The notes under the pieces were generated by a model. The model ran no database searches. It had not been told where the DNA came from and saw only the letters and a list, made by a program, of their open reading frames with translations. Shown one piece after another: positions 102 through 16,027 of a DNA stretch of 35,758 bases. How positions within the stretch are numbered: the first letter of the stretch is position 1; every line of letters starts with the position of its first letter. Made by a program: the position numbers and the translations under genes. The stretch covers positions 1-35,758 of IMG/VR virus record IMGVR_UViG_3300042691_028937; one strand, given 5' to 3'. The DNA is from a virus.

Positions 102-491
102 ATGAGTAGCCGCCCGACCCGCTGCCTCCGCTGCGGCCAGCCGCTCCCCGTGCCCGCGGCCGCCGGCCGCCCGCGCTACTACTGCTCCGACCGCTGCCGC
201 TACGCCGACCGCAAGCGCAAGGCGCAGGGCGCCCGGCTCGCCGGCGACGGCTTCGTGCCCGCACCCTCCGCCGCCCGCCGGGCCGAGCTCGCCCTGGCCC
301 TGGCCGGCGCCGCCGCCGCCGCGCCCGAGGACCGACTCGCCACGCTCCTGCTCGAGCTCCTGGGCATCGCCGCGCAGCTCGAGCACCTCGAGCGCGACCT
401 CGAGCCCACGCTGCGGTTCCGTTCAGAACGACTCCGGCGGGCGCTCGTGCTCGCCCTCGACAATGACTTCGGGGAGGTCATCCGTGGCTGA
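102..491 (+). CDS. Zinc-ribbon protein, first gene of the modification operon
   Basis: Protein of 129 residues. The N-terminus has a four-cysteine cluster (C8, C11, C28, C32) followed by a basic stretch (RYADRKRK), like small zinc-ribbon DNA-binding domains. The rest is alanine- and leucine-rich, predicted helical, and probably forms a coiled coil (about residues 55-115, with regular Glu/Leu spacing). The gene overlaps the next one by eight bases. It lacks a Shine-Dalgarno site but has a -10 box seven bases upstream, suggesting leaderless translation. Its function is not recognised. Position at the head of the ParB-like/base-modification operon suggests a DNA-binding or regulatory role, which is inference only. 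Confidence 0.7.
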   Translation: MSSRPTRCLRCGQPLPVPAAAGRPRYYCSDRCRYADRKRKAQGARLAGDGFVPAPSAARRAELALALAGAAAAAPEDRLATLLLELLGIAAQLEHLERDLEPTLRFRSERLRRALVLALDNDFGEVIRG

Positions 492-1125
492 TACGCCCAC
501 CCTCGAGCGCCGGCGCCTGTCCGGGCTCACACCCGACCTCGACAACGCGCGCCGGCACTCCGCAGCGAACGTCGAGGCCATCCGGCTCTCACTCGAGCGG
601 TTCGGCCAGCAGCGCCCGCTCGTCATCCGCCCCGACGGCACCATCGTCGCCGGCAACGGGACCTATCAGGCGGCCGCCGCCCTCGGCTGGGACGAGCTCG
701 AGGTGGCCGTGTTCACCGGCACCGACGACGAGGCTCGGGCGTTCGCCATCGCTGACAACCGCACGGCCGAGCTCGCGGCCTGGAACGCCGAGCTGCTCCG
801 TGAGCAGCTGGCCGAGCTCGGGGAGCTGACGGCCTGGACCGGCTTCGCCGACCTCGACCTCAGCGGCCTCCGGGCGCCCGGCGAGCCCGAGGCCGCCCAC
901 GCCACCGGCATCGGCACCGCCCGGTCCATCACCGAGCACGCCGAGCGATACGCAGCCCGGGCTACCCGGCTTCTCATCTTCGAGTACCGCGCCGACCTCT
1001 ACGCCTGGGTCACCGCCCGCATGGAGGAGCAGCGCGAGCGGTTCGACTCCCTCAGCAACGCCGACGCCCTCGTGGCACTCCTGGCCGAGCGGGCCGGCGT
1101 CCCCATGCCCGAGGTGATGGGATGA
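484..1125 (+). CDS. ParB/sulfiredoxin-fold protein, copy 1
   Basis: Protein of 213 residues from a GTG start. GGGGAGG lies about seven bases upstream of this GTG, whereas the earlier in-frame ATG at 463 has no ribosome site. The first ~100 residues form a ParB N-terminal-like domain: an NARRH motif, a helix ending in LERFGQQ, PLVIRPDGT, then AGNGT and AFAIADNRTAE. This phage and methylase-associated branch lacks the ParB helix-turn-helix and has GNGT where chromosomal ParB has its GERR-type motif, so it is probably not a partition protein. The C-terminal half is helical and unassigned. Blocks at 589-641 and 730-794 are base-for-base identical to parts of the second copy (1364-1990). ParB-like domains are known companions of phage base-modification genes. 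Confidence 0.82.
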   Translation: MADTPTLERRRLSGLTPDLDNARRHSAANVEAIRLSLERFGQQRPLVIRPDGTIVAGNGTYQAAAALGWDELEVAVFTGTDDEARAFAIADNRTAELAAWNAELLREQLAELGELTAWTGFADLDLSGLRAPGEPEAAHATGIGTARSITEHAERYAARATRLLIFEYRADLYAWVTARMEEQRERFDSLSNADALVALLAERAGVPMPEVMG

Positions 1126-1364
1126 CCTGCGTGAGCGACTGGCACGAGGCTCAGACCTGCGAGGAGCACGTCCATTGCGTCACCTGCGGATTCCTGCTCG
1201 ACGACGCGGCTCCGCCGCCGCCGCCCGAGGACCCGCGCGTGCTCGTGCTCGCCACCTGTCGAGACTGCGAGCTCCCGCTCTACCCGGTGGACGACGTCAT
1301 GGACCCCGTCCAGCGCCAGGTATGGGAGTTCGAGCTTCGGCATCATCGGGGAGGTGCGCGCTGA
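1122..1364 (+). CDS. Small four-cysteine zinc-ribbon protein
   Basis: Protein of 80 residues starting at an ATGA overlap with the upstream ParB-like gene and ending in a TGATG overlap with the second copy. CxxC pairs at C19/C22 and C46/C49 flank a proline-rich linker (PPPPPEDP), which looks like a split zinc ribbon. The acidic C-terminus ends in a basic tail. Its position between two paralogues suggests it works with them. It could bridge protein and DNA, or be a regulatory microprotein; no family is recognised. Confidence 0.65.
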   Translation: MTCVSDWHEAQTCEEHVHCVTCGFLLDDAAPPPPPEDPRVLVLATCRDCELPLYPVDDVMDPVQRQVWEFELRHHRGGAR

Positions 1365-1990
1365 TGGCCCGCCCGCTCCGCCGGCGCCTCGGCGACCTTC
1401 ACCACGACCCGGCGAACGCCCGGGAGCACACCGAGGCCAACGTCGCCGCCATCGCCCGGTCACTCGAGCGGTTCGGCCAGCAGCGCCCGCTCGTCATCCG
1501 CCCCGACGGCACGGTCATCGCCGGCAACGGGACCCTCGAGGCGGCCCGGTCCCTGGGCTGGCGGTCCCTATGGGTACAGGAGTTCACCGGCACCGACGCG
1601 GAGGCTCGGGCGTTCGCCATCGCTGACAACCGCACGGCCGAGCTCGCGGCCTGGAACGCCGAGCTCCTGTACGACCAGCTCACCGACCTCGGCGACCTCG
1701 CGGCCGCCGCCGGCTTCACCTCCGCCGACCTGGACGACCTCGCGGCACAGCTCGAGGAGGAGGTGGAGCTCCCCGGCGAGCCCGAGGCGCCGTCCGACCC
1801 TGACCGCTACGCCCTGCGCGCTACCCGGCTCGTCATCCTCGAGTACCCGAGCGAGCTCTACGTCTGGGTCGTAGGCCGGCTCGACGAGGAGCGCGCCCGG
1901 CTCGGCGTGGACTCCAACGCGGCCGCCCTCGTGGCTATCTGCCAGGACCTGTCGCCTGTTCCGGCCCCGGAGGTGCCCGATGGAGCATGA
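1364..1990 (+). CDS. ParB/sulfiredoxin-fold protein, copy 2
   Basis: Protein of 208 residues, start chosen at the ATG overlapping the upstream stop (TGATG), with GGGGAGG about seven bases before. It has the same domain as copy 1: NAREH, SLERFGQQRPLVIRPDGT, AGNGT, AFAIADNRTAELAAWNAE, then a variable acidic linker and a similar C-terminal segment (ATRLVILEYPSELYVWV). Two stretches of 53 and 65 bases (1460-1512 and 1601-1665) match copy 1 exactly although the flanks have diverged. That points to a recent duplication or ongoing gene conversion. It lacks an HTH and most likely assists the modification enzymes downstream rather than partition. Confidence 0.82.
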   Translation: MARPLRRRLGDLHHDPANAREHTEANVAAIARSLERFGQQRPLVIRPDGTVIAGNGTLEAARSLGWRSLWVQEFTGTDAEARAFAIADNRTAELAAWNAELLYDQLTDLGDLAAAAGFTSADLDDLAAQLEEEVELPGEPEAPSDPDRYALRATRLVILEYPSELYVWVVGRLDEERARLGVDSNAAALVAICQDLSPVPAPEVPDGA

Positions 1991-2120
1991 TGGCTGGTGG
2001 AGCTGCGGCGGCTGCGGTGACGAGCTCGAGGTCGGCGTGGAGCATGAGTGTCCCGTCCTGGGCTCCGTCGTACTCGTGACGCTTCGGAAGGAGGCGACCG
2101 ATGAATCTCCCCGTCCATGA
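1980..2120 (+). CDS. Tiny CxxC...HxC zinc-binding protein
   Basis: A 46-residue frame starts at ATG 1980 inside the end of the upstream ParB-like gene (seven codons before its start lies GGAGGTGCC, a good ribosome site) and runs 20 bases into the dioxygenase gene. It contains C9 and C12 (SCGGCG) with H22 and C24 (EHEC), consistent with a zinc site. It is the third small cysteine protein in this operon. It fills the otherwise empty 110-base gap and keeps translational coupling, which supports it being real. Function unknown. Confidence 0.5.
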   Translation: MEHDGWWSCGGCGDELEVGVEHECPVLGSVVLVTLRKEATDESPRP

Positions 2121-2964
2121 AGTAGACCGGCTGATGGACCGTGACGAGGCTTCGGCGCTCGTGGGCGCCCTGGTGCCCGAGATGGAGCCCAACGCCGGCG
2201 ACCCCGGCATCTGGGTAGACCGGGCCACCGGCGACCCTGTGCTCGTGGTACTGGCCCTCCCGCGCACCACCACGGCGCCGCTGCGGCGGGCCGTGCTGAC
2301 CGTCAAGTACGGCGTCACCACCCGGCAGACCACCGGCCTCAACAACCGCTCGCGGACCTTCGGCATGGCGCCGCGCAAGGTCTACCAGATGCGGGAGGCC
2401 TGCCGGCCGGCGGCCCTGGCCTCTGAGCAGCCCGACGTGCACGACGTGCTCGTGCGCACGGCCCTCGAGCTCGAGGGCGCGCTGCGCGAGCTGGCGCCCG
2501 GCGTCTGGGACGAGGGCGAGCACACGATGGAACAGGTAGCCGACGAGTGGCGCATCGCCGAGGGCTCCGTCTGGACCTCCGGCGTCATCAACAAGACCTC
2601 GACCCTCCCGTACCACCGCGACGGCTTCAACTTCGACGTATGGAGCGCGATGCCCGTCCTGCGGCGGGCCGTAGCCGGCGGCAACCTTCACTTCCCCGAA
2701 TGGGGCCTCACGTCTGCCTCCCGCGACGGCACGGCCCTGTTCTTCAACGGCTTCCGCAACGTGCACGGCGTCACCCCGCTCGCCATGCGCGCGGAGGACG
2801 GCTATCGCTTCACCATCGTCTACTACTCGCTGCGCGGCATGAAGGACTGCTTCACCTACGCCGTCGAGCAGGCCCGGGCGCAGGCGAAGCGCACCGAGCG
2901 CGAGGATGGCATCGCCGCGGCCGTCCGGGGAGAGGGCGGCTACCGCGTCTGGGGCGACGAATGA
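2101..2964 (+). CDS. TET/JBP-type 2-oxoglutarate/Fe(II) dioxygenase
   Basis: Protein of 287 residues; AAGGAGG lies about seven bases before the ATG. The C-terminal half carries the double-stranded beta-helix dioxygenase signature: YHRDGFNFD with the HxD metal pair at H172/D174, the distal metal histidine H222 in RNVHGVTP, and R236 in GYRFTIVYYS, the expected 2-oxoglutarate-binding arginine. The order and spacing resemble the TET/JBP family, which oxidises the methyl group of 5-methylcytosine or thymine in DNA to hydroxymethyl. The N-terminal 130 residues are less conserved. The next genes are a thymine-pyrophosphorylase-clade protein, a PLP enzyme and a kinase, the neighbourhood described for phage TET/JBP genes, so it probably creates the hydroxymethyl base they elaborate. 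Whether the substrate is thymine or methylcytosine cannot be read from the sequence; another DNA-acting 2OG oxygenase is less likely. Confidence 0.78.
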   Translation: MNLPVHEVDRLMDRDEASALVGALVPEMEPNAGDPGIWVDRATGDPVLVVLALPRTTTAPLRRAVLTVKYGVTTRQTTGLNNRSRTFGMAPRKVYQMREACRPAALASEQPDVHDVLVRTALELEGALRELAPGVWDEGEHTMEQVADEWRIAEGSVWTSGVINKTSTLPYHRDGFNFDVWSAMPVLRRAVAGGNLHFPEWGLTSASRDGTALFFNGFRNVHGVTPLAMRAEDGYRFTIVYYSLRGMKDCFTYAVEQARAQAKRTEREDGIAAAVRGEGGYRVWGDE

Positions 2965-4022
2965 TGGAGCTGGTCGCTGGCTCCGACTTCCGCCGGCCTG
3001 AGCTCCGCCGCGAGGTGTTCCTGCGGTTCTACGACTTCCACCTCCGCCACGGCACCCATCCGGGGCTCGTCTGGGCCCTGTTCCCGTGGCTCGCGGAGCG
3101 GTTCGGCTGGGACGAGGAGACCTACGCCTGGTTCTGCTTCCTCAACGGCAACACGCAGAATCCCATCACCTCGCTCATGCTGCTCGAGGCCGCGCCCTCG
3201 CCCGCCCAGGCTCAGGCCGCGGTGGACTTCTGGCGCGCCGAGTACGCCCGGCTCGAGTGGGACACCGACCGCCGCTACCACAAGCGGATGTTCGACGTAG
3301 CGGTCGAGGGGTATCTGGCGGTCGTGGGCTCACGACAGCTCGATTACTGGCGCGGCGCCCGCTCCTGGGAGGGCGTCTGGGCTCTCGCCACGGCCCTTCC
3401 GACGTTCGGACGGCTCTCAGCCTGGTCCTATCTCGAGTACCTGTACCTCGCCGGCATCCACGACCACGACGCCTCCACCCTCATGCTCGCTGACCGCTCG
3501 GGCTCGCGGTCGCATCGCAACGGGCTGTGCATCGTGTCCGGCCGTGACGAGTTCGACTGGCACGACTCCAACCCGACCTTCGACGGCAGCTACCCGCCCG
3601 ACCTGCTCAACGACCTCGGCGACGTGGGCGAGGACCTGCTCGCGGCGGCCCGCGCCCGCCGGCCCGGCGACCGCGCGGTGTCGCGGCTCACCCTCGAGAG
3701 CGCCCTGTGCACGTACAAGAGCTGGCACCGCCCTCGCCGGCGGTATCCGAACGTCTACGCGGATATGCACTACAACCGCGTCACCCGGGCCGAAGGACTC
3801 TGGCCCGAGAGGGACTTCGGCCTGTGGTGGGAGGCCCGTTCGGCCCTGCTCCCGGCCGCCCTCCGGCTCGAGGACAATCCCTACGACCCCGGGCTCCACC
3901 CCGACAAGCAAGACCACTACCGGCTCACCGGGCAGGTCATCGTCATGGACTGCGAGGAGCCCTGGGCGGCCAACGACTTCACCGCCCGAGTGGCGGCGGG
4001 CGCGTGGGGCCGGTGCCGATGA
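2961..4022 (+). CDS. Alpha-glutamyl/putrescinyl-thymine pyrophosphorylase-clade protein (possible amino acid:DNA transferase)
   Basis: Protein of 353 residues starting at ATGATG overlapping the dioxygenase stop; either Met may be used. I recognise features of the phage family first predicted as alpha-glutamyl/putrescinyl thymine pyrophosphorylases: FLNGNTQNP at residues 60-68, DRSGSRSHRNGL in the middle, and ALCTYKSW with RRYPNVYADMHYNR around residues 248-275. Members of this clade transfer an amino acid or amine onto a phosphorylated 5-hydroxymethyl pyrimidine in DNA (amino acid:DNA transferase). The context fits exactly: oxygenase upstream, PLP enzyme and P-loop kinase downstream, all coupled by 4-base overlaps. 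Which amino acid is used cannot be told. The clade assignment is from remembered motifs and needs a profile search. Confidence 0.68.
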   Translation: MMELVAGSDFRRPELRREVFLRFYDFHLRHGTHPGLVWALFPWLAERFGWDEETYAWFCFLNGNTQNPITSLMLLEAAPSPAQAQAAVDFWRAEYARLEWDTDRRYHKRMFDVAVEGYLAVVGSRQLDYWRGARSWEGVWALATALPTFGRLSAWSYLEYLYLAGIHDHDASTLMLADRSGSRSHRNGLCIVSGRDEFDWHDSNPTFDGSYPPDLLNDLGDVGEDLLAAARARRPGDRAVSRLTLESALCTYKSWHRPRRRYPNVYADMHYNRVTRAEGLWPERDFGLWWEARSALLPAALRLEDNPYDPGLHPDKQDHYRLTGQVIVMDCEEPWAANDFTARVAAGAWGRCR

Positions 4023-4888
4023 CCCTGACGCCCTGTGAGGAGCGCGGCGGCCGCTGGTACAAGCGCGACGACCTCAACCGCCACCCCTCCGGCGTGAACG
4101 GCGGCAAGTGGCGTCAATGCCTCTGGCTGGTCGAGCGCGCCCAGGCCCAGGGCTATCGGCGCATCGTGTCCGGCGCCTCCATCCTGTCCCCGCAGCTACC
4201 GATGGTCGCCACCGCGGCCGCGGGCGCCGGCCTCACCTGCACGCTCGTCATCGGCGGTACCACCCCAACCTCCGCCGCCCGCCAGCCCGGCATCCGCATC
4301 GCGGCCGATGCCGGCGCCGAGCTCCGGGTCATCGCCGTGGGCTACAACCCCGCGCTCCAGGCCGAGGTTCGCCGGCTCGTGGAGGCCGACCGCGGCCGTG
4401 AGGCCGCCATCCTCCACTACGGCATCACCCTGGGGCCCGATGCCTCGCTCGCTGATTACCGGGCGTTCCACAACCTCGGCGCGCAGCAGGTACGGGCCTT
4501 ACCGCCGGCCGTGCGCGAGCTCGTGGTTCCGTTCGGCTCGGGCAACAGCGGCGCATCCGTGCTCTACGGCCTGTCGCAGGGCCTGGCGCCCGGCGTCGAG
4601 CGCGTCCACCTCGTGGGCATCGGCCCCAACCGCCAGGCCTGGCTCGCTGCGCGGCTCGAGCTCCTGGGCGCCGACCTCAGCGACCTCGAGGTCATCCACC
4701 ACGACCTCCACGGCGCCGGCATCGTCACCTACGGCCAGCGCGTCCGGTGGGTCTCCGACGGCATCGTCCTTCACCCCACCTACGAGGCGAAGGTCGCCCG
4801 CTGGCTCGAGGCCTCCGACGCGGTGCCAGCCTGGAACCGCCCGGACGGCTCCGTGGCCCTCTGGGTCGTGGGAGGTCCACTCTCGTGA
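4019..4888 (+). CDS. Fold-type II PLP-dependent enzyme of the base-modification operon
   Basis: Protein of 289 residues, start at the ATGA overlap. It resembles the ACC deaminase/D-cysteine desulfhydrase branch of fold-type II PLP enzymes. KRDDLN at the N-terminus is followed by NGGKWRQ, with K30 the likely Schiff-base lysine (family pattern GGNKxRK). SGASILSPQ at about residues 50-58 sits where this fold binds the substrate carboxylate and PLP phosphate, and VPFGSGNSGAS at about 165-175 is a glycine-rich phosphate-binding loop. It is somewhat shorter than the usual ~330 residues. PLP enzymes in phage hypermodification clusters act on the amino acid attached to the base, for example by decarboxylation or elimination, and that is the likely role here. 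The exact reaction is unknown. Confidence 0.75.
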   Translation: MTLTPCEERGGRWYKRDDLNRHPSGVNGGKWRQCLWLVERAQAQGYRRIVSGASILSPQLPMVATAAAGAGLTCTLVIGGTTPTSAARQPGIRIAADAGAELRVIAVGYNPALQAEVRRLVEADRGREAAILHYGITLGPDASLADYRAFHNLGAQQVRALPPAVRELVVPFGSGNSGASVLYGLSQGLAPGVERVHLVGIGPNRQAWLAARLELLGADLSDLEVIHHDLHGAGIVTYGQRVRWVSDGIVLHPTYEAKVARWLEASDAVPAWNRPDGSVALWVVGGPLS

Positions 4889-5394
4889 GGGCGGCCTACG
4901 TCATCGGCGCGCCCGGGGTCGGCAAGACCACCGCGCTCGAGCTGGCATTCCCCGCGGTGGCGCCGGCGGAGCGCGCCCCGGGCCCGTTCGGGCTCCTGTG
5001 GCTCACCCCCATCGCCGGCGGGTGGCGCCTGGGGCGGCCTCGAGCGCGATTCTCCGGCACCGACGCACTCGCCATGAACGTCCACCCCCAGGCCGTCGCA
5101 TGGGCCCTCGCGGCGCCGATGCCGGAGGTGGTCGTGGGCGAGGGGCAGCGGCTCGCCACCGCCGCGTTCCTCGACGCCCTGCGGTCCCGCGGCACCGTCC
5201 GGCTCATCCACCTCACCGCCGACCCGCTCGAGCTCGAGCGCCGGCGCGCCGGCCGCGGGCAGAACGAGACCTGGGTACGCGCAGCGACGACCCGAGCCGC
5301 GAACCTCGCCGCCGAGCTCGGCGCCGCCACCATCGACACCACCGGCCTGTCGCCGGACCTCGTGGCGGAGGTCCTGCGGTCGCTCGTGGAGTGA
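4885..5394 (+). CDS. P-loop nucleotide/DNA kinase, candidate hydroxymethyl-pyrimidine DNA kinase
   Basis: Protein of 169 residues from GTG 4885, which overlaps the previous stop (GTGA) and has GGGAGG about nine bases upstream. Walker A is GAPGVGKT at residues 8-15. VVVGEG near residue 75 could be the Walker B-like strand. HLTADPLELERRRAGRGQNETWV resembles the lid and arginine region of small NMP-kinase-like proteins, and LAAELGAATIDTTG that of the last strand. Such P-loop kinases in phage hypermodification clusters phosphorylate the 5-hydroxymethyl group in DNA to make a leaving group for the transferase. The start is certain from spacing; the substrate is inferred from neighbours. Confidence 0.75.
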   Translation: MRAAYVIGAPGVGKTTALELAFPAVAPAERAPGPFGLLWLTPIAGGWRLGRPRARFSGTDALAMNVHPQAVAWALAAPMPEVVVGEGQRLATAAFLDALRSRGTVRLIHLTADPLELERRRAGRGQNETWVRAATTRAANLAAELGAATIDTTGLSPDLVAEVLRSLVE

Positions 5395-5398
5395 CGCG

Positions 5399-5950
5399 GT
5401 GCCGCGGCCGAAGGACCCCACCCGCGCCCGCCGCGGGACAGGCCACCGACCGCTCCCCGGTCAGGCCAAGCCCGACGAGCACTCCGCCGACGTTCGGCTC
5501 GTGGACCACCACGCGGCTCCGCCTCCGCCGCCCGAGGACATGGCGAACCCCGTGGCCCGTGAGTGCTGGAACGTCGCGGTGGAGGAGCTGTGGGAGCGCG
5601 GCCTCCGCCGGGCCGACCTGCTCGAGCTCCGGCTGATGTGCGAGCAATACGCCGTCGCCCACGAGGCGGCCAACGGTCGCTTCGGCTTCCAGGTCGTAGG
5701 CATCGTCATCCCCGACCCCCGCGGTGACATCATCGAGCCCGACCCCGACCGCCCTGGCGAGCTCCGGACCCGGCATACCGCGTTCATGCCGAACCCCACC
5801 GTGAGACTCGGACGAGATGCGGCCAACACCTTCATGCGTATGGCGGCCTCGTTCGGGCTCGACGTCGCATCCCGGATGCGCCTGGGGCTCATGGTCCTGT
5901 CGGGGCAGTCCCTCGCCGACGCGCTCATGGAGGAGCTCGAGCGTGACTGA
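5399..5950 (+). CDS. terS: Small terminase subunit (P27-like)
   Basis: Protein of 183 residues from GTG 5399, four bases after the kinase stop. A basic, proline-rich N-terminus (MPRPKDPTRARRGTG) precedes PPPPPEDMANPVARECWNVAVEELWERG, the start typical of P27-family small terminases. Later, NPTVRLGRDAANTFMRMAASFGL resembles the family's conserved C-terminal helix. The protein recognises phage DNA and delivers it to the large subunit for packaging. It lies next to the large terminase, with one small gene between. Assignment rests on the pattern and position. Confidence 0.8.
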   Translation: MPRPKDPTRARRGTGHRPLPGQAKPDEHSADVRLVDHHAAPPPPPEDMANPVARECWNVAVEELWERGLRRADLLELRLMCEQYAVAHEAANGRFGFQVVGIVIPDPRGDIIEPDPDRPGELRTRHTAFMPNPTVRLGRDAANTFMRMAASFGLDVASRMRLGLMVLSGQSLADALMEELERD

Positions 5951-6152: not shown

Positions 6153-7636
6153 CCGCCCTGCCTGCCGGGCTCCTGTCGCCGGCCGACCGCGTCGAGCGAT
6201 TCTTTCGCCGGTTCCTGACCCACGGCAAGGGCCAGTTCGCAGGGCGCGCCTTCAACCTCGAGCCCTGGCAGCGCACCGACCTCATCGAACCCATCTTCGA
6301 CCCGCTCGTGGAGCGCGGTGGCCGGCTGCTCCGGGTGGTCACCGAGGGCATGGCGGGCATCGCGAAGAAGAACGGCAAGAGCACAACATCGGCCGGCCTC
6401 GGGGCCTACGGCCTGTTCGCCGACGGGCACTACGTCGCCGATGCCGGCGCCCCGGGCGGCTGGTACTGGCAGCGCGAGGTCGGCGCCGAGGTCTACAACG
6501 TCGCCGGCTCCCGCGACCAGGCCAAGGTGCTGTTCAACATGGCGAGCTCGATGGTCCGGCGCTCCCCGCTCCTGGCCGCGCAGGCGAAGGTCTACCGCGA
6601 CGCCATCGAGGTCCCCAAGACCGAGTCCGTATGGCGCGTCATGGCCTCCGATGCCTCGCTCGCCCACGGGCCCTCGCCCTCGCTCGCCATCCTCGACGAG
6701 CTCTGGGTCCACACCTCGCCCGAGCTCTACGAGGCGTTCGCCGCCGCCGGCGCCGCCCGGCTCCAGCCGCTCGTCATCTCCATCACCACCGCCGGGTGGA
6801 ACAAGGACGGCATTGCATACGCCCTCTACGAGCGCGGCCGGCGCAACCGCTCGCGGTCGTTCCACTTCGTCTGGTACCAGGCGAAGGAAGGCACCGCCGC
6901 CGACGACCGCGCCGGCTGGCGGGCCGCGAACCCCTCGCGGTGGGTCACCGCCGCCTACATGGACTCCGAGCTCAAGCGCGCCCGGGCCCTCGGGAACGAG
7001 GCACAGTTCCGGCGGTGGCATCTCAATCAATGGAGCTCGGGCGAGGAGCTGGCCCTGCCCGTCGAGCTCTGGGACGCCTGCGGCGGCCGCCCGCGCATCC
7101 CCGACGGCGCCCGGGTGGTCCTGGGCGTGGACTCCGCGCCGAAGCGTGACTCCACCGCGGTCGCCGTGGTCCATCTCGATGCCGACCGCGTACATCACGT
7201 CCGGGTCGCCCACATGAACGCCGACCCCGACACCGGCTACCTCGACTACGCCGCCCTCGAGGACCTGCTCCGCGAGCTTGCCCGGCGCTACGAGGTCGAG
7301 CGCATCCTCGTGGACCCCTTCAACATGATGCGCAGCTTGACCATGCTGCTCGACGAGGGACTCCCCGTGGAGGAGTTCCCGCAGACCGACGCCCGCATGA
7401 TGCCGGCCTCGATGAACCTCTACGAGCTTGTCTACGCCCGCCGGCTCCGCCACGGCAACGCGCGCGAGCTCCGCATCCAGGCCATGAACGCCGGCAAGCG
7501 CACCTCGGAGCGCGGCTGGCGGTTCGAGAAGCGCAAGAGCGCCGGCGTCATCGACGGCATCGTGGCCCTGGCTATCGCAACCTATGAGGTCGAGCGCGCC
7601 GACGAGGCGACGCCCCGGCCCGTGCTGTTCGTCTGA
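6149..7636 (+). CDS. terL: Large terminase subunit, ATPase and nuclease
   Basis: Protein of 495 residues from GTG 6149, preceded by GAGGAGG and overlapping the upstream gene (GTGA). The ATPase half has a Walker A-like loop AKKNGKST at residues 72-79 and Walker B LAILDELW with D183/E184. The nuclease half begins with VLGVDSA (D328), followed by RILVDPFN and KSAGVIDGIVALA, which supply the acidic residues of the RNase H-like fold. This matches the Terminase_1 family and its usual ~500 residues. It powers DNA translocation into the prohead and cuts the concatemer. Confidence 0.93.
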   Translation: MTALPAGLLSPADRVERFFRRFLTHGKGQFAGRAFNLEPWQRTDLIEPIFDPLVERGGRLLRVVTEGMAGIAKKNGKSTTSAGLGAYGLFADGHYVADAGAPGGWYWQREVGAEVYNVAGSRDQAKVLFNMASSMVRRSPLLAAQAKVYRDAIEVPKTESVWRVMASDASLAHGPSPSLAILDELWVHTSPELYEAFAAAGAARLQPLVISITTAGWNKDGIAYALYERGRRNRSRSFHFVWYQAKEGTAADDRAGWRAANPSRWVTAAYMDSELKRARALGNEAQFRRWHLNQWSSGEELALPVELWDACGGRPRIPDGARVVLGVDSAPKRDSTAVAVVHLDADRVHHVRVAHMNADPDTGYLDYAALEDLLRELARRYEVERILVDPFNMMRSLTMLLDEGLPVEEFPQTDARMMPASMNLYELVYARRLRHGNARELRIQAMNAGKRTSERGWRFEKRKSAGVIDGIVALAIATYEVERADEATPRPVLFV

Positions 7637-14200: not shown

Positions 14201-16027
14201 CTGACGCGGCCGCGGGCAGGCCGTAAGCAGGCCGGCGTCGGCGTCTACCGCCGGCGGCCGGCGGACCGCGTCCTGTTCCGGCGGTACATTCCGCCCTCTG
14301 CTCCTGCGGGCACGCCCGTCGTCACCGGCGCGGCCTCCGCCCGCTCGAGCTCGCGGGCCGCCGCCGCCTCGACCGTCACCACGACGGCCGTGGCCTCCGC
14401 GCGCACCCGCTCGCGGGCCGCCGCCATCTCGCTCGTCATCGTCCCGGCCGCGGTCTACACCAACCGCCGCTACACCTTCGACGAGGGCACCGACGCCTCG
14501 ACCATCACGACGGGCGACACCGGCTCCGGCGACCCATTCGACGGCGTCACGATTGGGGTCGGGAACTCCGTCGAGTACGACACGGCGGTCCGGCTTCACG
14601 GGAAGGCGTCGGCGCGTGTCTTTACCGACACGAACAACAACGGCAACTTCTACTGGTCGTTGCTCGAGGAGCCCGAACGGTTCTATGTCTGCATCTACTC
14701 GCGGCTCACTACGGTCGGCTCGCTCCTGCGCATCGTCTACTTCCTCCAAGGGAACAACTCAATGGGCGGCGCGCGGTTCAACACCTCGCGCGTCCTGGCG
14801 ATGCTCGACGACGCCGGGGCCGTCATCACCGGTTCGACGTTCACGACCATCCCGAACCTAGGCGAGTGGTTCCGCCTCGAGGTCTACATCGAGCCCGCGA
14901 CCGGCGGATGGGAGCTGCGACTGTTCACCGGGGCCGACCTCGAGAGTGCGACCCCGACCGAGTCCAAGTCCGGAACCGGCGCATCGTTCACGTCGGGCGG
15001 GACGCTCATCGCGAACCGTGTGCGGTTCGGTTCCGTCGGCAACGCGCATGAGTTCTACATCGACTCAGCCGCGGTCTCGACCGGGTCATGGCTCGGGCCC
15101 TGGCGGCCGCTGCGCTATCGCTCGAGCTCGCGGGCCGCCGCCATCTCGACCGTCACCACGACCGCGGCGGCCTCCGCCCGCTCGAGCTCGCGGGCCGCCG
15201 CCACCTCGACCGTCACCGCCGGCACGGTCACGGTCACCGCGGCGGCCACCGCCCGCTCGAGCTCGCGGGCCGCCGCCATCTCGACCGTCACGACGACGGC
15301 CGTGGCCTCCGCGCGCACCCGCCCTCGCGCCCTCGCCGCCGGCCTGGGGCTCGCCCTCGGCGCCGCCTCCGAGAGAGGCCGCTCGCGGGCCCTGGCCGCC
15401 GGCCTGGGGCTCGCCCTCGGCGCCGCCTCCGCGAGAGGCCGCTCGCGGGCCCTGGGCACGTCCCTGCGCATCGCAACAGCCTCGGCTAGTGCTCGGGGCC
15501 AGGCACGCTCCCTCGCGGCTTCCTCGAGCATCACGACGGCCGCGGCGGCCTCCGCCCGCTCGAGCTCGCGCGTCATCGCCATCTCGACGGTCGGGACGGT
15601 CACCGTCGTCACCGCTGCGGGTGGCTCGCGGAGCGCCCCGCGGGCTCTCGCCGCCGCCTCGGGCATCACGACGACGGCCGTGGCCTCCGCGCGCACCCGC
15701 CCTCGCGCCCTGGCCGCCGGCCTGGGGCTCGCCCTCGGCGCCGCCTCCGCGCGGGCTCGCACACGCTCCCCGGTGGCCGCCTCGAGCATCACGACGACGG
15801 CCGTGGGGCGCAGCCGGACCACCACCCGGGCGCCTCTCATCACCCTGGCCCTCACGACGGCCGTGGGGCGTGACCGCGGCCACGCCCGCGACGCGGCCGT
15901 CAGCGGCGCCGGCGTACTCTCATTCGTGCTCGACCTGGGCCGGGCCGCCTCCGGGCCCGACCTGGGCCGCTCGGGCATCGGCTCCCGCGAGGTTGCGAGC
16001 GCGGCCGTGACCGCCGACATAGGCTGA
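14201..16027 (+). CDS. Repeat-array structural protein with an inserted lectin-like domain, probable CTG start
   Basis: No ATG/GTG lies near the 5' end of this frame. GGGAGGAGGG at about 14184-14193 sits seven bases before CTG 14201, and coding is continuous from there, giving 608 residues; a GTG at 14390 would lose the first repeats. Residues ~45-83 carry two copies of a 20-residue repeat (SARSSSRAAAASTVTTTAVA type). Residues ~87-303 form a concanavalin-like domain (YTFDEGTDAS; NLGEWFRLEVYIEPATGGWEL; IDSAAVS). After it come about 13 further repeats to residue ~565, then LDLGRAASGPDLGRSG. Each unit pairs an Arg/Ser-rich half with a hydrophobic/Thr half, suggesting a fibrous beta structure. 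A single matching unit ends the protein at 26090-27046. It is probably a virion fibre. Confidence 0.6.
   Translation: MTRPRAGRKQAGVGVYRRRPADRVLFRRYIPPSAPAGTPVVTGAASARSSSRAAAASTVTTTAVASARTRSRAAAISLVIVPAAVYTNRRYTFDEGTDASTITTGDTGSGDPFDGVTIGVGNSVEYDTAVRLHGKASARVFTDTNNNGNFYWSLLEEPERFYVCIYSRLTTVGSLLRIVYFLQGNNSMGGARFNTSRVLAMLDDAGAVITGSTFTTIPNLGEWFRLEVYIEPATGGWELRLFTGADLESATPTESKSGTGASFTSGGTLIANRVRFGSVGNAHEFYIDSAAVSTGSWLGPWRPLRYRSSSRAAAISTVTTTAAASARSSSRAAATSTVTAGTVTVTAAATARSSSRAAAISTVTTTAVASARTRPRALAAGLGLALGAASERGRSRALAAGLGLALGAASARGRSRALGTSLRIATASASARGQARSLAASSSITTAAAASARSSSRVIAISTVGTVTVVTAAGGSRSAPRALAAASGITTTAVASARTRPRALAAGLGLALGAASARARTRSPVAASSITTTAVGRSRTTTRAPLITLALTTAVGRDRGHARDAAVSGAGVLSFVLDLGRAASGPDLGRSGIGSREVASAAVTADIG
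15119..15900 (+). repeat. Coding 60-bp repeat array
   Basis: The C-terminal part of the fibre-like gene consists of about 13 units, mostly 60 bases (20 codons), with a few of 63-75. The block encoding LAAGLGLALGAA recurs with near-identical bases near 15333, 15393 and 15708; the first two are exactly 60 bases apart. The unit encoding SSRAAAISTV recurs near 15121, 15181 and 15255, and also at 14341 before the inserted domain. Near-identity at the DNA level points to recent expansion by slippage or recombination. Confidence 0.8.

Follow-up and report, generated by a model that had tools for sequence, protein, structure and literature searches.

The 35,758-base linear virus record IMGVR_UViG_3300042691_028937, analyzed over its full length and referred to here as the window, carries a cassette of four overlapping genes that probably specifies a thymine hypermodification pathway acting on finished phage DNA; we put the probability of this reading at about 0.85. 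The cassette encodes a TET/JBP-family oxygenase, a putative amino acid:DNA transferase (ADDT), a fold-type II pyridoxal 5'-phosphate (PLP) enzyme and a P-loop kinase (coordinates in Table 1). Based on the computed families, folds, catalytic residues and operon structure, the TET/JBP enzyme would convert thymine in DNA to 5-hydroxymethyl-2'-deoxyuridine (5hmdU) by hydroxylating its methyl group, the kinase would phosphorylate the new hydroxyl to give 5-phosphomethyl-dU, ADDT would swap the phosphate for an amino acid, and the PLP enzyme would trim the adduct. We infer each reaction, their order and the amino acid from these features. The kinase and transferase steps are modeled on published 5hmdU chemistry, in which 5hmdU is acted on by a 5hmdU DNA kinase and then undergoes amine transfer (PMC6449724). 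The purpose would be protection from host nucleases.

All four open reading frames (ORFs) are intact and lie on the forward strand, and each gene overlaps the next by 4 bases (ATGA, ATGA and GTGA in gene order), which bears out the layout given in the original prediction from the DNA letters. The predicted family assignments of the four proteins are far beyond chance. Against the Tet_JBP family (PF12851), the oxygenase scores 34.6 bits in hmmscan, just short of the 34.9-bit cut-off, and 35.8 bits, above the cut-off, in a six-frame genome search; its match to phrog_6059 is strong (1.9e-78). An AlphaFold2 (AF2) model with a mean predicted local distance difference test score (pLDDT) of 93.8 finds its best matches in the PDB in NgTET1 (E 2e-11), CcTet, TET2 and CMD1; the first 26 matches are all TET, CcTet or CMD1 structures, and FTO/AlkB are about four orders of magnitude weaker. 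Residues H172, D174, H222 and R236 are invariant in 31 aligned TETs and line up in a sequence profile with the residues of human TET2 that bind the metal and 2-oxoglutarate, so that H172, D174 and H222 are predicted metal ligands and R236 is predicted to bind 2-oxoglutarate. Profile and fold searches thus place the protein among TET/JBP enzymes, as had been proposed, and not outside the DNA-acting 2-oxoglutarate oxygenases. The phage family is labeled "queuine tRNA-ribosyltransferase" in PHROGs (phrog_6059) and in many RefSeq records (for example, NC_011044 and NC_023701), a label that is wrong given the TET/JBP fold and residues. N177, an asparagine at position HxD+5, was considered as a mark of thymine recognition and dropped because TET2, a 5-methylcytosine (5mC) enzyme, has Asn there too.

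The second protein had been assigned to the alpha-glutamyl/putrescinyl-thymine-pyrophosphorylase clade, and both profile and fold agree in identifying it as an ADDT. It matches PF18724 (1.8e-13) and phrog_3271 (9e-74) and shares the family motif E-x-x-L-C-x-[YFW]-[KH]-S. The closest solved fold to its AF2 model (pLDDT 96.5) is the PaMx11 5-phosphomethyl-2'-deoxyuridine glycinyltransferase (8z2m/8z2n; probability 1.00, template modeling score 0.6 by target), followed by OGG1-type glycosylases. The Foldseek E value for 8z2m/8z2n is modest (0.015), and a mixed family profile (A3) agrees independently, matching 8z2m (3e-5) and 25qc; a search of PDB sequences with another profile (A10) gave no true match. 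The third protein matches PALP (PF00291, 8e-9) and phrog_3650 (3e-63), and its profile matches 1-aminocyclopropane-1-carboxylate (ACC) deaminase and D-cysteine desulfhydrase. K30, the Schiff-base lysine, is invariant in 29 PLP enzymes and falls on the PLP lysine of these relatives, in keeping with the fold-type II enzyme originally proposed. The fourth protein, likewise recognized earlier as a P-loop kinase from its Walker A motif GAPGVGKT, matches Ploopntkinase3 (PF18751, 5.5e-15), and Walker residues G8, G13 and K14 are invariant in 25 kinases. In actinophage records, this gene is labeled "terminase small subunit" (phrog_800) or "adenylate kinase."

Phages whose TET makes 5hmdU in DNA should have no need of a dUMP hydroxymethylase. 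Whole-contig searches for the thymidylate-synthase/hydroxymethylase family (PF00303) agree with this expectation: the family is absent from all 29 contigs or genomes with TET and ADDT, the window included, and from all five TET-only records, and present in 11 of 16 that share the ADDT and/or PLP genes but lack TET (nominal Fisher p 4e-7, indicative only because the contigs are related to one another). A sample neutral to this question gave the same result. Because a scan of viral contigs with a single ADDT sequence yielded no match, 80 loci were fetched with a PLP profile; 33 of them have PLP, ADDT, kinase and TET, none with a thymidylate-synthase match, and 21 have PLP and ADDT with a thymidylate-synthase match and no TET, leaving none with both. 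Among isolates, PF00303 occurs in four of four phages whose thymidine modifications have been published (ViI, M6, PaMx11 and phiW-14) and in none of four further TET isolates.

The TET-less Glutamicibacter phage Montesquieu illustrates the exchange. It keeps ADDT (45% identical to that of the window), the PLP enzyme (36%) and an adjacent kinase in the same order, but has a pyrimidine hydroxymethylase where the window has TET. In the ADDT tree its sequence branches among TET-associated ones, and the tree needs at least three switches (a quick tree, with Shimodaira–Hasegawa-like approximate likelihood ratio support only). Because PF00303 and TET co-occur in none of these loci, and given the swap in Montesquieu, TET most likely replaces nucleotide-level hydroxymethylation, as the original prediction had held; the mutual exclusion on the same downstream cassette backs that claim. 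A search of the window for a dUMP hydroxymethylase of the thymidylate-synthase family found none, TET being present instead, in a fragment that lacks the replication module. Three contigs with ADDT and PLP (L133, L152 and L159 in our locus numbering) have neither TET nor the thymidylate-synthase family; candidate explanations for their 5hmdU source are a fragment effect, the host or a third hydroxylase.

The likeliest adduct would be an oxygen-linked serine, whose decarboxylation would leave 5-(2-aminoethoxy)methyl-dU or a closely similar base. This guess is made because the ADDT and PLP enzymes are of the type found in Salmonella phage ViI (Vi01), which encodes orthologs of both (orf247, 9.6e-54, and orf226, 1e-98, respectively). 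The ViI pathway also includes a published kinase step and post-replicative decoration of 5hmdU in DNA (PMC6449724; PMC11721090), and its DNA carries 5-(2-aminoethoxy)methyl-dU (5-NeOmdU; PMC11721090), formally a decarboxylated serine ether. ViI differs in having a thymidylate-synthase-family enzyme, with 5hmdU thought to enter at the nucleotide level, where the window has TET, and in having its genes scattered rather than joined in one cassette of four overlapping genes. In 2022, Lee and colleagues are said to have reported serine as the donor in ViI and decarboxylation as the reaction of the PLP enzyme. The end product had been considered unreadable from sequence; the ViI orthologs narrow it, with roughly even odds, to 5-(2-aminoethoxy)methyl-dU or a near analogue, which remains a best guess.

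A less likely alternative accepts the first three steps and gives the PLP enzyme a different role: α,β-elimination, deamination or racemization of the adduct, or action on the free amino acid donor, with a final base other than aminoethoxymethyl-dU. The nearest solved relatives, ACC deaminase and D-cysteine desulfhydrase, do deaminate or eliminate, and phages of the thymidylate-synthase type place the PLP gene apart from ADDT, as with orf226 and orf247 in ViI. However, the PLP family is strictly coupled to one of two ADDT clades, that of the window (ADDT_w), whereas the other clade (ADDT_t) pairs with a flavin adenine dinucleotide (FAD) oxidoreductase in 20 loci, as in PaMx11 gp46/gp47; and the modification of ViI, which has both orthologs, is the one that trimming by decarboxylation would yield. 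The Pseudomonas phages PaMx11 and M6 (N-glycinyl-T, 5-NmdU and 5-NedU) resemble the window in ADDT fold (8z2m) and kinase family (gp49) and differ in ADDT clade, in having a thymidylate-synthase-family enzyme instead of TET and, in PaMx11, in having the FAD oxidoreductase in place of the window-type PLP enzyme.

Thymine as the TET substrate has to be weighed against 5mC, in which case the downstream enzymes would decorate 5-hydroxymethylcytosine in the manner of phage C5-methyltransferase/TET/glycosyltransferase sets. The phage TETs characterized from such sets have C5-methyltransferases and glycosyltransferases as partners (PMC12730594), the closest solved folds (TET2, NgTET1 and CcTet) act on 5mC, C5-methyltransferase domains are present in three loci (L029, L045 and L170), and the host could supply 5mC. 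Such a cytosine pathway is nevertheless improbable. In the cytosine systems the C5-methyltransferase is encoded with TET, whereas this family (PF00145) is absent from the window and from 47 of 50 related records, from which we infer that the substrate is T. Moreover, the thymidylate-synthase family serves the same ADDT, PLP and kinase set in TET-less relatives, and the known substrates of ADDT relatives are 5-phosphomethyl-dU or 5hmdU. By description, there is also a likeness to kinetoplastid JBP1/JBP2, where a TET/JBP oxygenase makes 5hmdU from T in DNA before decoration to base J; that system is eukaryotic and uses glucosylation instead of the phosphate and amino acid chemistry proposed here.

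Also very unlikely is a kinase that serves in DNA packaging or nucleotide metabolism, with a pathway made up of TET, ADDT and the PLP enzyme only. The kinase does abut terminase genes in many actinophages, phrog_800 bears its terminase label, and Mycobacterium phage Vincenzo has the kinase without TET or ADDT. Against this, a distinct terminase small subunit lies 3' of the kinase in both the window and Ottawa, the kinase adjoins ADDT and PLP genes whether the contig is of the TET or the hydroxymethylase type, and it is related to PaMx11 gp49, within the thymidine-modification operon of that phage. Finally, a decayed or horizontally passed remnant that leaves no product in virion DNA might be suspected from the many partial gene combinations among related phages, but is hardly credible for four intact frames with 4-base overlaps, all catalytic residues kept, and high-confidence models of TET and ADDT.

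Several points weigh against the pathway of thymine oxidation, phosphorylation, amino acid transfer and trimming. We know of no biochemistry for any TET acting on T in such a setting, nor for the phage of the window. Fold-type II PLP enzymes eliminate or deaminate more often than they decarboxylate. The ViI ADDT is highly divergent (end branch of 4.68 in the ADDT tree), so the amino acid used by the window enzyme may differ. The exclusion statistic overstates independence among mutually related contigs, and because the window is a linear 35.8-kb fragment without a replication module, a hydroxymethylase may lie elsewhere in the phage genome. The kinase profile matches PaMx11 gp49 (2e-7) and not M6, ViI or phiW-14, a weak link to characterized 5hmdU kinases. 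Vincenzo has the PLP enzyme and kinase without ADDT, TET or hydroxymethylase, and Margaery and Ottawa carry TET and kinase only; these combinations suggest that the kinase may have another role as well.

The cassette is common in metagenomic viruses. A viral contig collection gave 257 TET relatives, of which 80 were kept and joined with the 80 PLP-fetched loci to make 160, whose gene content was read by local profile searches. The order TET-ADDT-PLP-kinase occurs in 19 of the 160, ADDT-PLP-kinase-TET in 13 and TET-ADDT_t-kinase in 27. A metagenome-assembled genome (MAG) contig assigned to Actinomycetota, with 47% GC, has all four genes, ordered as in the window. In L092–L102, the same ADDT-PLP-kinase set also adjoins TETs of a remote clade, with about 21% identity to the window TET; distant TETs of L092–L110 carry an extra zinc-like loop with four cysteines (CxC...CxxC) beside the active site, placed after the second metal histidine and before the 2-oxoglutarate arginine. 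A chromosomal or plasmid origin of ADDT was set aside because a search of plasmids found none and cellular genomes yielded only three MAG contigs.

Among cultured phages, megablast with the window gave no match, and none of 50,697 records has both the window-type TET and the PLP enzyme (TET matches 89 records and PLP 346, and the joint query returned 435, their exact sum); the full four-gene set is therefore known here only from metagenomes. Cultured actinophages share a frame of ParB-TET-x-kinase-terminase. Mycobacterium phages Hangman and Rich, Gordonia phage LittleMunchkin, Rhodococcus phage Tonitrus and Microbacterium phage MO526 have TETs 43–48% identical to that of the window, with the same neighborhood and kinase. 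The position x is filled by ADDT without the window-type PLP enzyme in Hangman, LittleMunchkin and Tonitrus, by ADDT and an FAD oxidoreductase in MO526, and by a TET-associated glycosyltransferase (TAGT) and a PIG-L-type de-N-acetylase in Rich (L008, 1710–3025), which keeps the kinase; the last pair suggests an aminosugar on 5hmdU. Nothing recognizable occupies x in Margaery and Ottawa (L009 and L010), whose genomes have no PF18724 match and no known transferase near TET; their product could be phosphomethyl-dU itself, or a further enzyme could be needed. In Vincenzo (L006, 1–3152), the PLP enzyme and the kinase accompany a fusion of ParB with a methyltransferase, in a genome lacking TET, ADDT and the thymidylate-synthase family.

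In profile searches of the window, two ParB-like genes precede the cassette, which is followed by the terminase small and large subunits, portal and protease; the remainder includes genes for the major head protein, the tape measure and the tail, together with an annealing protein (Erf) and a nuclease (HNH). ParB-like genes also lie 5' of TET in Tonitrus, LittleMunchkin, Hangman, Margaery and Ottawa, and Ottawa, like the window, has a tandem pair, immediately 5' of TET. The GC content is 70–75% over most of the length, which together with the relatives suggests an actinobacterial host. A 545-residue ORF at 14390–16027, with repeats of the kind ARSSSRAAAISTV, lies within a 78% GC stretch among the tail genes.

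Table 1. The four cassette genes and neighboring features of the window
Position	Strand	Product	Remarks
2101..2964	+	TET/JBP-family 2-oxoglutarate/Fe(II) dioxygenase, predicted thymine-in-DNA C5-methyl hydroxylase	287 aa; Tet_JBP, phrog_6059, AF2 fold
2961..4022	+	ADDT, amino acid:DNA transferase (aGPT-Pplase2-like), predicted to replace base phosphate with amino acid	353 aa; PF18724, fold
4019..4888	+	Fold-type II PLP enzyme (PALP), predicted trimmer of attached amino acid	289 aa, ATG start; PF00291, phrog_3650
4885..5394	+	P-loop kinase (Ploopntkinase3, GAPGVGKT), predicted 5-hydroxymethyl-dU DNA kinase	169 aa, GTG start; PF18751
463..1125	+	ParB-like protein, possible accessory factor	phrog_620 6.7e-33
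1364..1990	+	Second ParB-like protein, paralogue of the 463..1125 product	phrog_620 3.2e-32
1980..2120	+	Small CxxC ORF, doubtful; overlaps end of second ParB gene and TET start	46 aa; sequence reading
5399..5950	+	Terminase small subunit, directly 3' of cassette; context, outside pathway	PF05119 6e-7, phrog_83
6155..7636	+	Terminase large subunit, context	PF03354, PF20441, phrog_9

The idea of TET-linked base hypermodification was largely predicted before. Iyer and colleagues reportedly predicted in 2013 that phage TET/JBP enzymes are linked to ADDT and other base-hypermodifying enzymes; a passage of PMC4111573 cites Iyer et al. 2013 for TET-linked 5hmU glycosylation in mycobacteriophage Acadian. 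What is new is the pattern of replacement, the rule that pairs each of two ADDT clades with its own trimming enzyme, and the finding that no cultured record joins TET to the PLP enzyme. More tentatively, the modification may be made wholly in place, with ordinary T incorporated during synthesis and TET, working on completed DNA near the time of packaging and perhaps steered by the neighboring ParB-like proteins, selecting the thymines to be turned into 5hmdU. The oxygenase would then set a sequence-selective pattern, rather than random incorporation of 5hmdUTP, and the base would be aminoethoxymethyl-dU-like or a wholly new one derived from an amino acid.

If the proposed pathway is correct, the modification would be predicted in many uncultured phages, a group with no full-set representative found in culture, and its demonstration would directly test whether phage TET/JBP enzymes hydroxylate thymine, as has long been predicted. 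Such compact enzyme sets could also serve to modify selected thymines of normal DNA, with no need for a dedicated nucleotide pool. More generally, two unrelated first steps, nucleotide-level hydroxymethylation and in-DNA oxidation by TET, would be interchangeable before one downstream cassette.

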